From the NCBI GenBank assembly GCA_947497245.1, contig CANMFO010000001.1, positions 310,001 to 374,000 of the forward strand: a stretch of DNA of 64,000 nt. Reading direction: 5' to 3'. Of this stretch, positions 1,550 through 19,784 are shown piece by piece. The first letter of the stretch is position 1; each line of letters starts with the position of its first letter. The position numbers and the translations under genes are program-made. The DNA is from an uncultured Flavobacteriaceae bacterium (GTDB lineage: Bacteria > Bacteroidota > Bacteroidia > Flavobacteriales > Flavobacteriaceae). The notes under the pieces are model-generated. The model saw only the letters and a program-made list of their open reading frames with translations. It was not told where the DNA came from and did not search any database.

Positions 1550-3043
1550 CTACTTAAAGTTGAAATTCAACGGTTTGTCCAGAATCATATTATCTTTCAA
1601 GGGCGTGAACATTTTGGAGCTTGTCATGACCTCGGCAGGAATTCCCACGCTAAAGTCAATTTTGGCCGTGCTACCTGTTATTTCCTGAATTGCCCTGGCC
1701 AGAAGGGGTTCGTTCTGATCTCCCAGTACGCCTAGATTGGCCAAATCTTCCTGCAATTCGATGTCCGGGGCCAATCCTGAGGTGTAATCAAAAAAGCCAT
1801 CGGCATTCTCGTTTCTTCCCACTAAGGGTTGAATGGCCCATTTGTTGTCCGGATTGATGTTGCTTTCCCTTTCAGGGTTGTATATCCAAGGGCCAAAATT
1901 ACTTTGCGGATCATCTACCATGGTAATGGAAAACTCATTTTTACCACGGGTGGTCTCTCCGATTTGGACAACGTCTATATAAGGGGCAAGGCCGTTGATG
2001 ACCAATTCACTGGCCGAGGCGGAACTACCGGTGGCGAGCACATATACCTTGGTGAGGTTTAGCGTATTGATGGCAGTTCCATCACCGGTTTTGTCGGCAA
2101 AATAGTCCACCAACTGTTCATCGGTCAATTGCGTTTGGATTTTGGAGTTCCATCGTTGCTTTAAAAACAGATTGTTGGTGTTGGTCCCATGGATCATGCT
2201 GGAAAGCAAACGGGCCGAGTTCACCGAACCTCCCGGGTTATAGCGAAGGTCGAGGACCAGATCGGTTACCCCTCCGGCCACAAAACGGCCAAAGGCGGCA
2301 TTGAGGTCCTCATCGAATTCATTGGTAAAGCCATTGTACACCAAATACCCTATTTTTTGCCCTCCTATTTCAAATATCTTGTCCAAAAAAACTGGATTTT
2401 CGACCAGGTTGGGCATCTTGGTCAACGCCACTTCCTCCCCATTGGGGCTGATGACGTTATCGGATATGGTAGCCATATTCAAGGTATAACTATCATTTTC
2501 CCCGAATAAGAGAGCAATATAATTGCTGGTGTTCAGCGTCTGCCCGTTGACCCCTGTGAACAGATCTCCACGACCGATATCCTTGGTGGCCGCATCCGAA
2601 CCTGGGACGATGTACCGTACATACCCGAAAAGATCATCGCTATCGGAAAAGCGCACTACGCCGAACTCCATGCCATTGCTTTTGGATATACCGGCCAACG
2701 ATTGGGTAAATTCTTTAAAATCATCGGAATAGGTACTGAAACGGTCTTCCCCGAACTTTAAGTGGTCATCGAAAAATTTCCCGGGGTCGGCCTCCGAGGC
2801 CAAAAACTCGGTGTAGGCTTTGGAACCTTCCGCAGTATTGGGGAACTTGTCATCGGAAAGGTTGGGTACGTCCGCCTGCCAAAAATACCAGAAATTCATG
2901 GCGCTCCACATAAAGTCCTGAACATCAACATTTGCGTTTGGGTCCGGGTCGACCTTCGTTCCCGGATTCAGGCCATCATCGTCTTTTTTGCAGCTGGTGA
3001 GTAAAAATCCAATTGCCAGAAACAACGCAAAATACTTTTTCAT
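1550..3043 (-). CDS. S41 family peptidase (C-terminal-processing-protease type), lipoprotein
   Basis: 497 aa. The N-terminus has a lipobox (LLTSC, Cys18), so the protein is probably anchored in the periplasm or outer membrane. A PDZ-like region lies around residues 105-200 and the S41 protease core around 225-400. The core contains VLDLRYNPGG near 263-272, then TGSSASASE with the probable nucleophile Ser341, and GETTRGK with the general-base Lys near 368, as in tail-specific proteases. It stands alone, with its own terminator downstream. Family assignment is strong; the substrate is unknown. S41 lipoproteins of this size are common in flavobacteria and are distinct from the longer Prc/Tsp. 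Confidence 0.9.
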   Translation of the reverse strand: MKKYFALFLAIGFLLTSCKKDDDGLNPGTKVDPDPNANVDVQDFMWSAMNFWYFWQADVPNLSDDKFPNTAEGSKAYTEFLASEADPGKFFDDHLKFGEDRFSTYSDDFKEFTQSLAGISKSNGMEFGVVRFSDSDDLFGYVRYIVPGSDAATKDIGRGDLFTGVNGQTLNTSNYIALLFGENDSYTLNMATISDNVISPNGEEVALTKMPNLVENPVFLDKIFEIGGQKIGYLVYNGFTNEFDEDLNAAFGRFVAGGVTDLVLDLRYNPGGSVNSARLLSSMIHGTNTNNLFLKQRWNSKIQTQLTDEQLVDYFADKTGDGTAINTLNLTKVYVLATGSSASASELVINGLAPYIDVVQIGETTRGKNEFSITMVDDPQSNFGPWIYNPERESNINPDNKWAIQPLVGRNENADGFFDYTSGLAPDIELQEDLANLGVLGDQNEPLLARAIQEITGSTAKIDFSVGIPAEVMTSSKMFTPLKDNMILDKPLNFNFK

Positions 3044-3350
3044 TCTTTTTTTTTTAGGGGTTTTTTTAATCTACGGAATACCGGCGGAAATAGTTGTCCT
3101 CCATACCCAAGATTCGAACCATACGACCTGTTATTCGATGAATAACAATCCAAAACACAAAAACCCTACCAATTTAGGACCGTTCATCCGGTTTTCCGCA
3201 TTCCGTCGGGAATTATTACGGTATCTTAGTAAAACAAGGACCAAATTACTTACATAATAAGGAATAAAAAATTATTTGTAACAAATTTCGACATACATCG
3301 TCTTCCTAATGTAAACCACTTATTGTGGTCCATACAACAACCCAACCGCA
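3044..3350. other. Intergenic region between divergent genes, no gene seen
   Basis: 307 bp between the S41 protease and the ECF sigma gene. It holds poly-T/poly-A tracts beside the protease start and AT-rich sequence before the sigma gene. Promoters for both genes should lie here, but I found no exact TAnnTTTG with a correctly spaced TTG. Confidence 0.6.
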
Positions 3351-3860
3351 ATGCAACAGTCAGAATTTTTGAACGTGGTAATGCCCTTTAAGGACAAGTT
3401 GTACCGACTGGCGAAGCGCCTTTTGATATCTTCGGAAGAAGCGGAGGACGCGACACAGGAAATACTGATGAAACTATGGTCTAAAAATGAAGTCATGGGG
3501 TCTTACAAAAACGTGGAGGCATTTGCCATGACGATGACGAAGAACTTTTGCTTGGATCGCCTGAAATCGAAACAGGCCACCAACATGAAATTGGTGCACA
3601 GCAACTATGCGGAGGAAAATTCAGGACTGCAAAAGCAGATCGAGGCCAAAGACAGCGTCCATTGGGTGCAGAAGATCATGGAGGAGTTACCGGAACAGCA
3701 GAAATTGGTACTGCAGCTAAGGGATGTGGAGGAATACGATTTTGACGAGATTGCCGAAATGCTGGACATGCAACCGACGGCCGTCCGAGTGGCCCTGTCA
3801 AGGGCAAGAAAATTGGTCAGGGAAAAATTAGTACAAAAACATAGTCATGGAATTGGATAA
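3351..3860 (+). CDS. ECF-type RNA polymerase sigma factor
   Basis: 169 aa. Region 2 spans about residues 8-75 (FKDKLYRLAKRLL, EEAEDATQEILMKLWS, then AFAMTMTKNFCLDRLK). Region 4 spans about 105-160 (LPEQQKLVLQLRDVEEYDFDEIAEML with the recognition helix in TAVRVALSRARKLVREKL). It redirects RNA polymerase to a specific promoter set. The next gene starts inside its last codons (14-bp overlap), an arrangement typical of sigma/anti-sigma pairs. Three DUF4252 genes follow on the same strand, so they are the obvious candidate regulon or regulators. The start ATG at 3351 is the first in frame. Confidence 0.93.
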   Translation: MQQSEFLNVVMPFKDKLYRLAKRLLISSEEAEDATQEILMKLWSKNEVMGSYKNVEAFAMTMTKNFCLDRLKSKQATNMKLVHSNYAEENSGLQKQIEAKDSVHWVQKIMEELPEQQKLVLQLRDVEEYDFDEIAEMLDMQPTAVRVALSRARKLVREKLVQKHSHGIG

Positions 3861-18367: not shown

Positions 18368-18472
18368 TAGCAGCGGTTTGGCTTATAAGGGTATTTTATT
18401 AGCTTTTTGACTTATATTCTAAAATATTAGCATTTTAGCTTATATTTTTATATATTAGCGTTTTAGCTTATA
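18368..18472 (+). repeat. Array of phased 20-bp imperfect palindromes upstream of satD
   Basis: Three copies start at 18397, 18425 and 18453, exactly 28 bp apart. The consensus is TATTAGC-nTTTTn-(G/A)CTTATA; the arms TATTAGC and GCTTATA are near-complements (one mismatch). A degenerate fourth copy (GC..TTTG-GCTTATA) ends at 18387. The last copy ends 2 bp before the satD ATG at 18475. Phased dyads immediately upstream of a gene encoding an HTH protein are a classic operator layout. Autoregulation by SatD is the simplest reading. Confidence 0.8.
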
Positions 18473-18474
18473 GT

Positions 18475-19089
18475 ATGCAGATAGCGATAATAACCGGGGA
18501 TATCATAAATTCTGAGGGCCACGAGTCATCCGAGTGGTTGGGCGTGCTAAAGGCATACCTATCAAAATTGGGGGAATCACCGACCCATTGGGAAATATAT
18601 CGTGGTGACGAATTTCAGCTTAGAGTCCCTTTGGAACAGGCTCTGGAAGTGGCCATCCACATCAAGGCCCTTATGAAATCGATAAAAGGTCTGGATGTTC
18701 GCATGGGCATCGGTATTGGCGAGGTAACTTTTGTAGGTCGGGGGGTCAGCGAGTCAAACGGCCCGGCCTATCAGCGTTCAGGTAGGACCTTTGAATCCTT
18801 AAAAGAGGAAAAGCTCAACCTGACCATTGCCACCGGAGATGCGGTTTACGACCGTACAGTGAACCTTATTTTAAAATTGGCCCTAGGCTTTATGGATGAT
18901 TGGAGCACCGTTTCCGCCGAAATTGTGGCCCTGGCACTTGAAGATCGAACAGCGTCCCAGCAAGAGACCGCAAAAAAATTGGGTATTCAACAATCCGCAG
19001 TCAGCCAACGCCAAAAAAGGGCACGTTTGGATCTAGTGTTCGAACTGCTGTCCTATTATGCCGAAACCGTTAAAAAAGTTGCCCCATGA
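18475..19089 (+). CDS. SatD family protein: palm/cyclase-like N-terminus plus C-terminal HTH
   Basis: 204 aa. I recognise the SatD family from the N-terminus (MQIAIITGDIINSEG) and from the DUF3307 partner. Asp9, the GDEF tetrapeptide at 44-47, and VRMGIGIGEV at 75-84 are arranged like the metal-binding Asp residues and downstream strand of class III cyclases and GGDEF domains. Residues 161-186 (SQQETAKKLGIQQSAVSQRQ...) are a helix-turn-helix. No catalysis is proven and SatD function is unestablished. Its ATG lies 2 bp after the third palindrome. The stop overlaps the DUF3307 start by 4 bp (ATGA), so the two are translationally coupled. Confidence 0.82.
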   Translation: MQIAIITGDIINSEGHESSEWLGVLKAYLSKLGESPTHWEIYRGDEFQLRVPLEQALEVAIHIKALMKSIKGLDVRMGIGIGEVTFVGRGVSESNGPAYQRSGRTFESLKEEKLNLTIATGDAVYDRTVNLILKLALGFMDDWSTVSAEIVALALEDRTASQQETAKKLGIQQSAVSQRQKRARLDLVFELLSYYAETVKKVAP

Positions 19090-19784
19090 TCTTTTTCCTA
19101 AAACTTTTATTGGCACATCTTATCGGGGATTTCCTCTTGCAGCCCCACAAATGGGTACTCCACAAAGAGGCCCATAAAGTAAGATCAAAATACCTCTATT
19201 ACCACATGCTGATCCACTTCGCGGTCACAATGGTATTGTTGTGGGACTTGTCGTACTGGGGAGTGGCCTTGATCATTGCCTTTTCCCATTACCTTATCGA
19301 TCTGGCCAAATTATACGCAAACCCTTTGTTCAAAATAAAGGCTGTCCCATTTTTTATAGATCAAGCGGCACACCTGGCCGTATTGTACGTTTGTGCCTAT
19401 TATGGAAACCTTTGCGAACAAACCTCCGATTTATTGGAACAAATGGATTGGGCCTTGGTCACTGCCACGGTTTTTGTGACCTTTCCGGCCGCGATCATCA
19501 TGGGCAAATTACTGGAAGGGATGTCAGGTCAAATCGAATTGGATCACGAATCACTGCCCAATGCCGGTAAATATATCGGCATCATCGAACGGTTATTTGT
19601 TCTGGTGTTCATTATCTTGGGTAGGTGGGAGGCCATTGGTCTATTGATAACCGCGAAATCGGTCTTTCGGTTCAACGACCTAAAGGACAGCAACAACCGG
19701 AAGCTCACGGAATATATTCTGATCGGAACCCTTATGAGCTTTGGGATGGCGATCATTACCGGAATAATTTATGCCCATCTGTAA
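19086..19784 (+). CDS. DUF3307 polytopic membrane protein, SatD partner
   Basis: 232 aa, six or seven membrane helices. The DUF3307 signature is at the N-terminus (LAHLIGDFLLQPHKWVLHKEAHK with His/Asp/Gln near a helix), then SHYLIDLAKLYANP and FFIDQAAHLAVL. The recurring in-membrane His and Asp residues (LIGDF, YLIDL, FIDQAAH) could bind a metal or lipid headgroup. The start overlaps satD by 4 bp. The family is usually encoded next to SatD. Function unknown; a membrane effector or sensor for SatD is inference. Confidence 0.88.
   Translation: MIFFLKLLLAHLIGDFLLQPHKWVLHKEAHKVRSKYLYYHMLIHFAVTMVLLWDLSYWGVALIIAFSHYLIDLAKLYANPLFKIKAVPFFIDQAAHLAVLYVCAYYGNLCEQTSDLLEQMDWALVTATVFVTFPAAIIMGKLLEGMSGQIELDHESLPNAGKYIGIIERLFVLVFIILGRWEAIGLLITAKSVFRFNDLKDSNNRKLTEYILIGTLMSFGMAIITGIIYAHL

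Follow-up and report, generated by a model that had tools for sequence, protein, structure and literature searches.

A conserved array of phased palindromes before satD-DUF3307, predicted to serve as operators for SatD itself

Lambda CI at OR1-3 and the regulators of toxin-antitoxin systems are autorepressors that act at tandem operators. To our knowledge, SatD and DUF3307 are both widespread protein families without known function. The array described here in front of satD is similar to the sites of lambda CI and of the toxin-antitoxin regulators in that several similar dyads lie over the regulator's own promoter and a partner gene is coupled to it. It differs from them in that a 28/29-bp step is kept across many lineages with three or more sites, and in that the DNA reader of SatD is fused to a palm domain.

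The portions of the SatD and DUF3307 literature covered here comprise gene lists, acid-tolerance annotation, essentiality, proteomics and an sRNA target table. In Streptococcus pyogenes satD is an accessory gene (178 of 249 genomes) and yet is reported as essential in the part of PMC11323703 covered, and the S. suis satD product is labelled 'DNA-binding protein' in one table of PMC12005413. Operators or autoregulation of satD were not mentioned in the covered parts of PMC11323703, PMC5786311, PMC10326533, PMC10210942 and PMC12005413, nor in those of PMC4886424, PMC2904730 and PMC12657218, and no recognition code for the SatD family was found in the SatD literature covered; the original S. mutans work lies outside this scope. 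As described in the covered part of PMC12657218, the OptS/OptE pair of Panoptes is comparable to satD-DUF3307 in that its operon consists of two genes, one for a small protein of palm fold and one for a membrane protein, whereas SatD carries a helix-turn-helix (HTH) and a predicted operator array, its partner is a DUF3307 rather than an S-2TM-beta protein, and a role of the pair in defence is putative.

The window, that is the whole stretch of DNA analysed, comprises 64,000 nucleotides from an uncultured Flavobacteriaceae bacterium. Its two proteins exceed the curated cut-offs of both families, SatD matching PF16264 at 39.8 bits (cut-off 29) and its partner PF11750 at 97 bits (cut-off 23). The first-pass annotation had described three imperfect 20-bp palindromes at 18397, 18425 and 18453 with a 28-bp step, a degenerate fourth copy upstream, a last palindrome stopping 2 bp short of the satD ATG, a SatD ending in an HTH and a satD stop overlapping the start of a DUF3307 membrane protein. 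All of these were seen again in the window sequence, where the C-terminus of SatD matches Sigma70_r4 (PF04545) at 24.7 bits over a cut-off of 24.1 and the overlap is 4 bp long (ATGA, 19086-19089). Dyads 1 to 3 are 20 bp each, built 7-6-7 and set at a step of exactly 28 bp, the degenerate dyad lies 29 bp upstream of dyad 1, and the satD ATG stands at 18475. The features are as follows.

18368-18387, + strand: degenerate fourth dyad, TAGCAGCGGTTTGGCTTATA, 5 of 7 arm pairs (pattern search with mismatches)
18397-18416, + strand: dyad 1, TATTAGCTTTTTGACTTATA, of the form TATTAGC-n6-GACTTATA, imperfect on the GACTTATA side (repeat, dyad and shuffle analysis)
18425-18444, + strand: dyad 2 of the operator array, TATTAGCATTTTAGCTTATA (repeat, dyad and shuffle analysis)
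18441-18448, + strand: possible -7 element, TATATTTT, 7 of 8 positions agreeing with TAnnTTTG (motif from general background, putative role)
18453-18472, + strand: dyad 3 of the operator array, TATTAGCGTTTTAGCTTATA, ending 2 bp before the ATG (repeat, dyad and shuffle analysis)
18475-19089, + strand: satD, 204 aa, palm domain (about residues 1-122) and sigma-4-like HTH (profiles, model)
18991-19020, + strand: predicted SatD recognition helix, residues 173-182, with the candidate specificity residues S174, A175 and Q178 (covariation, model)
19086-19784, + strand: gene of the DUF3307 membrane protein, 232 aa, overlapping the satD stop by 4 bp (profile)

Within the window the array was the top of 11 rows reported by Tandem Repeats Finder (period 28, score 103), and the dyad pattern with up to three mismatches had 11 matches, where 100 shuffles averaged 2.77 and never exceeded 8. 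The three-site dyad score was 44 at the array and 30 at the best other place, and the array score of the upstream region was matched by none of 60 shuffles, both sets of shuffles being dinucleotide-preserving. Sites beyond the satD array were almost absent from the genomes searched. Across all 5,250,409 bp of the genome, the only spaced dyad pair found with up to three mismatches was the one before satD, and the reversed control of this pattern had no match. Single dyads with at most one mismatch were restricted to the three of the array and two other places, and those with two mismatches represent background since their count (15 forward) falls below that of the reversed control (74). Exact TATCGG-type sites were looked for in six other genomes, five of which held three or four sites each, with 3/4, 3/3, 3/4, 3/3 and 2/3 of them inside one 28-bp-spaced cluster; the sixth (L062), which has a different half-site, held none.

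To determine how far the array is retained, SatD was searched in 249 genomes of the family and was present in 140, which together with 34 loci from named genomes made up 174 loci (L005-L178), the SatD start being available in 173. After removal of a fragment (L158), a truncated start (L068) and six identical proteins, 166 loci were kept. It had been stated beforehand that absence of the palindromes at orthologous loci would speak against the proposal; they are conserved, as three dyads at a 27-29 bp step outscored all 60 shuffles in 161 of the 166 satD upstream regions. In the remaining five the score was reached by 42 (L159), 8 (L057), 2 (L167), 1 (L032) and 1 (L116) of the 60 shuffles. In the last 150 bp before satD the pooled self-match at lag 28 was 49.3%, where dinucleotide shuffles gave 32.8% (z 45), lag 56 stood out as a further peak (z 28), and the lag-28 signal was absent at -400 to -250 (0.266 vs 0.272 at other lags). 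A site caller that starts from three sites and rewards TAT/ATA ends, and hence biases both the TAT shares and the three-site minimum in that direction, counted three sites in 89, four in 54, five in 18 and six in 4 of 165 arrays, and was also used for the held-out sites below; the 161/166 test carries no such reward. Spacings between dyads in these arrays were 28 bp (332), 29 bp (80) and 27 bp (20).

A few lineages depart from the common layout. The step is mostly 29 bp instead of 28 in the clades L160-L177 and L215-L220, and SatD has a 3-residue gap before the HTH in L160-L171. The SatD of L159, from a draft genome of 86% completeness, has E and N in place of two invariant aspartates and is accompanied by neither a DUF3307 gene nor an array.

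The half-sites are of the form TATNNNN, with T, A and T at positions 1-3 in 90, 93 and 95% under a caller that rewards TAT, and positions 4-7 vary between lineages on a constant array architecture. The types include TATTAGC/TATAAGC (as in the window), TATCGGC, TATCTGC, TATTCC, TATCAC, TATTACC, TATATGC and others, and a conserved array with changing letters is what one would expect of sites that are read in each lineage by its own regulator. We therefore looked at covariation between half-sites and SatD residues in 161 loci, with L057, L032, L116 and L167 excluded and L159 outside the protein alignment. Residue Q178 of the recognition helix had the top excess mutual information with half-site positions 4, 5 and 6, and position 7 covaried little. 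Shared descent was handled by 80 independent pairs taken from a tree of the N-terminal domain only. Here Q178 ranked first among 199 SatD columns, with p 1.9e-8 when A and T at position 4 were merged and 4.5e-6 when they were kept apart. E149, S174 and A175 came second, third and sixth, and the best of 231 DUF3307 columns reached p 1.4e-3 in the same test. E149 belongs to the first HTH helix and so lies outside the recognition helix.

The triplet at 174/175/178, which like the merging of A and T at position 4 was chosen post hoc, differed in 21 of the 26 pairs whose sites differ, but in only 6 of the 54 whose sites agree. The triplet of the window, SAQ, goes with WAG in 35/35 loci, SSE with CGG in 13/13, DAK with CC in 8/8, NAK with CC in 6/7, SNE with CTG in 10/14 and GNQ with WAG in 13/19, and the same holds for AAR, ATR and SNK with WAC (7/7) and for SNA, SNT and SNY with WTG (7/7); NAT is not clean, with three sites in four loci. 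Among distant pairs (N-terminal identity <0.45) the site was common to 109 of 115 with the same triplet and to 720 of 4955 others. One case of convergence is L043, which stands among proteins of the QSNIS type; its helix reads QSDIS, residue 178 is K and its sites are TATTCC as in the DAK clade. The code table learned on the 161 loci was tried on 72 further loci, 26 of them with a triplet in the table, and in this set, which contains a few training-family loci along with pairs of close relatives, it predicted 17 of 20 sites where at least 3 of 6 half-sites start with TAT and 17 of 26 without the TAT filter, as against 6 of 20 for a constant guess of WAG. The three misses among the 20 were L232 and L241 (for both of which the table entry came from one locus) and L233, and the six further ones were all six PAK loci.

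SatD as the binder and autoregulator, earlier put forward as inference, is supported by this coevolution of half-site and recognition helix, which was controlled against both the N-terminal-domain tree and the DUF3307 partner, and by the held-out prediction. The array is a conserved operator array that SatD is predicted to read. Binding of SatD to its own array, though a prediction from sequence, is strongly supported, and the predicted autoregulation of satD-DUF3307 by SatD is well supported.

The promoter of the operon bears on the sign of this regulation. TAnnTTTG is the -7 promoter motif of Bacteroidota, and 95 of 164 loci have it within the last 120 bp, where 20.8 were expected. Counted from a dyad start, its TA has offset 18 in 50 of these 95, where it coincides with the two final bases of the dyad, and offset 16 in 16 others. 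The full motif is absent from the last 120 bp in 69 of 164 loci including that of the window, where the candidate element TATATTTT sits at offset 16 from dyad 2, where L011 has the full motif. In 62 of 164 loci the end of the last dyad is 0-9 bp upstream of the ATG. A promoter motif at fixed phase to the dyads suits occlusion of RNA polymerase and hence autorepression, and SatD likely represses satD-DUF3307.

The N-terminal domain of SatD has a palm (RRM-like) fold, in which D9 and D45 are invariant in 165 of 165 aligned proteins, L159 with its E and N standing outside the alignment; by structural element of the model rather than by residue-level superposition, they are candidate counterparts of the two metal-binding acidic residues that the palm-fold nucleotidyl cyclase/GGDEF/Cas10 superfamily has where strand 1 ends and in the hairpin between strands 2 and 3. 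The GG[DE]EF motif of diguanylate cyclases was not found, the window SatD reading RGDEF and position 43 being R in 160 of 165. Compared with GTP cyclohydrolase III, Cas10/Cmr2, class III nucleotide cyclases and GGDEF domains, SatD is distinguished by RGD[SE]F and by the fused HTH, and its palm-fold likeness to these families is expressed in Foldseek TM-scores of only about 0.4. The best reading of SatD is a cyclase/GGDEF/Cas10-like palm fused to a sigma-4-like HTH.

A DUF3307 gene lies downstream of satD in 170 of 173 loci, the other three being L056 (contig end), L034 (where satD runs into another gene) and L159 (divergent SatD). Going by the nearest start, 145 of the 170 pairs have no gap and 78 have the 4-bp overlap of the window. 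The DUF3307 model, a helical protein, had no clear match among solved structures, and PADLOC (2023 database) had no match for the window pair. Panoptes and Pycsar combine a nucleotide synthase with its cognate nucleotide-gated membrane effector, of which the palm domain and the helical partner seen here would be at most candidate counterparts. The N-terminus of the window protein (residues 2-106, 19089-19403) resembles phrog_2470, a phage membrane protein family of the moron/host takeover class (E 1.3e-10), and tblastn gave no matching phage record. In one distant family (L195, L197, L202, L203, L208) the gene after satD resembles DUF3307 very weakly (about 15 bits), and several genomes of this family carry two PF16264 matches.

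PF16264 was present in 66 of 296 genomes drawn across the phylum. With a free search of periods 18-44, 46 of these 66 distant loci beat all 50 shuffles and 20 did not, the set including truncated or wrongly started genes (L183, L196, L240 and perhaps L188, L222 and L227) and one protein (L235) identical to that of L052; the winning periods were 29 (30 loci), 28 (15) and 27 (1). Among 11 plasmid-borne loci, namely all seven SatD hits and four further DUF3307 hits, an array was found in eight, so that arrays precede satD in three haloarchaea and on a 3.8-kb enterobacterial plasmid as well. Those of the Vibrio lentus (z 10.1) and Salinivibrio (z 6.8) plasmids have a 28-bp step and were reached by 0 of 100 shuffles, and two near-identical Pseudoalteromonas plasmid arrays, also at 28 bp, by 1 and 2 of 100. 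Natronosalvus has two perfect TACAACC-n6-GGTTGTA dyads at a 29-bp step, which the plain period test misses (20/100), and the near-identical Haloplanus and Halorientalis loci have GTTCGCC-n6-G[GC]CGAAC dyads at 29 bp. The array of E. coli plasmid pEC34A scored 22 against a maximum of 20 in 30 shuffles. No array was found before satD in Segatella (L246), Sphingomonas (L247) and P. fragi (L255). The Haloplanus SatD has S, T and E at 174/175/178 and C, G at half-site positions 4 and 5, as have the STE and NTE proteins of Bacteroidota, and this possible agreement with the Bacteroidota code, from few loci, is a lead.

Besides a short hypothetical protein, rop and mobA, the gene table of pEC34A (L252, 3770 bp) lists a gene resembling satD (hhalign probability 98.8%) and one for DUF3307 (99.4%). 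Apart from this pair, at 1792-3481, the mobilizable plasmid carries almost no cargo. The pair was matched by seven plasmid records, six from Klebsiella and one from Escherichia, that are 3770-4424 bp long, and megablast did not find it in 5,426 complete E. coli genomes. Such near-exclusive cargo on a small plasmid suggests a role in defence, addiction or maintenance. On a Sphingomonas insulae plasmid (L247, 84-4072) satD-DUF3307 adjoins a gene annotated as a Pycsar system effector family protein, and HTH and ImmA/IrrE peptidase genes lie upstream of the pair.

SatD is, very probably, a dedicated autoregulator of the satD-DUF3307 operon, binding the array before its own gene and acting as a repressor. 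What computation gives is the array and its conservation, the reading of the array by SatD, the scarcity of further sites in the genomes searched and, where the promoter motif is present, the fixed phase to it. We infer that SatD acts as dimers, cooperatively and as a repressor rather than an activator, under nucleotide control and with DUF3307 as the regulated output. SatD dimers would bind each 20-bp dyad through the C-terminal sigma-4-like HTH, and the fixed step of 28 bp (29 in other lineages) may fill the array cooperatively because it would bring neighbouring dimers into contact. As the array covers the promoter, bound SatD would shut out RNA polymerase, and this exclusion would fix the level of SatD and of the membrane protein coupled to it. 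The palm with its invariant aspartate pair most likely binds or turns over a nucleotide, which may tune the affinity for DNA. Several points go against this explanation. The array test was not passed by 5 of 166 loci, by 20 of 66 distant ones and by 3 of 11 on plasmids, and 69 of 164 loci lack the full -7 motif. E149 ranks second from outside the recognition helix, half-site position 7 covaries little, the triplets NAT and SNE are not clean, and the PAK loci were mispredicted. Further, 28 bp is a non-integer number of helical turns, and a sigma-4-like HTH would fit an activator as well. SatD might bind the array and activate its own operon by recruiting RNA polymerase through the HTH, or do both depending on the sites filled, given its match to sigma-70 region 4 and arrays of up to six sites reaching well upstream of the -7 motif; TAnnTTTG, where present, overlapping or abutting a dyad in constant phase (offset 18 or 16 in 66 of 95 loci) and the last dyad so near the ATG suit blocking instead, and we regard activation as improbable. 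That another regulator, or an RNA or DNA structure, accounts for the dyads with SatD as a mere neighbour is very improbable: the link of SatD to the array starts from position and its binding is predicted from sequence, but the site letters track residues of the SatD recognition helix above any DUF3307 column and the code table was right for 17 of 20 held-out loci. An array arisen by chance or as a low-complexity A+T-rich repeat, as the A+T-rich region and the common TAT/ATA ends might suggest, is contradicted by the dinucleotide-preserving shuffles and the conserved 28-bp step, and its probability is negligible.

Autorepression by SatD is compatible with, and not opposed to, a further reading in which the pair works in the manner of a toxin-antitoxin or defence system. 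Here SatD would restrain a harmful DUF3307 by repression and perhaps through a nucleotide or direct contact, and loss of SatD or of its ligand would free DUF3307. The overlapping two-gene operon with the regulator first, the cargo of pEC34A, the Pycsar-annotated neighbour in L247 and the likeness of a palm plus membrane protein to Panoptes (PMC12657218, part covered) are consistent with it. So would be satD of S. pyogenes, which is reported as essential though accessory in the covered part of PMC11323703, as an antitoxin could be, provided that this SatD works alike. Against it stand the lack of a PADLOC match for the window pair, the presence of SatD in 140 of 249 family genomes, as a housekeeping gene could have it, and L034, which retains satD without DUF3307. 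We consider this reading possible, if on the unlikely side.

Beyond what had been noted earlier, the letters of the array vary by lineage on a fixed architecture, SatD has a palm domain, and the circuit occurs in archaea and on plasmids. SatD is now a predicted sequence-specific autoregulator with named operators, specificity residues and a recognition table, and both the 7-6-7 dyad and its 28/29-bp spacing are seen again in haloarchaea, Gammaproteobacteria and Bacteroidota. It is a tentative and rather doubtful idea that SatD-DUF3307 is a module for signalling or defence, widespread in Bacteria and Archaea and in part carried by plasmids. In such a module SatD would be both a palm-fold messenger enzyme or sensor and a cooperative autorepressor with a code read from three residues, and DUF3307 a nucleotide-gated or SatD-restrained effector. 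A DNA-binding protein built on a Cas10/GGDEF/cyclase-like palm would tie the control of transcription to nucleotide binding or signalling.
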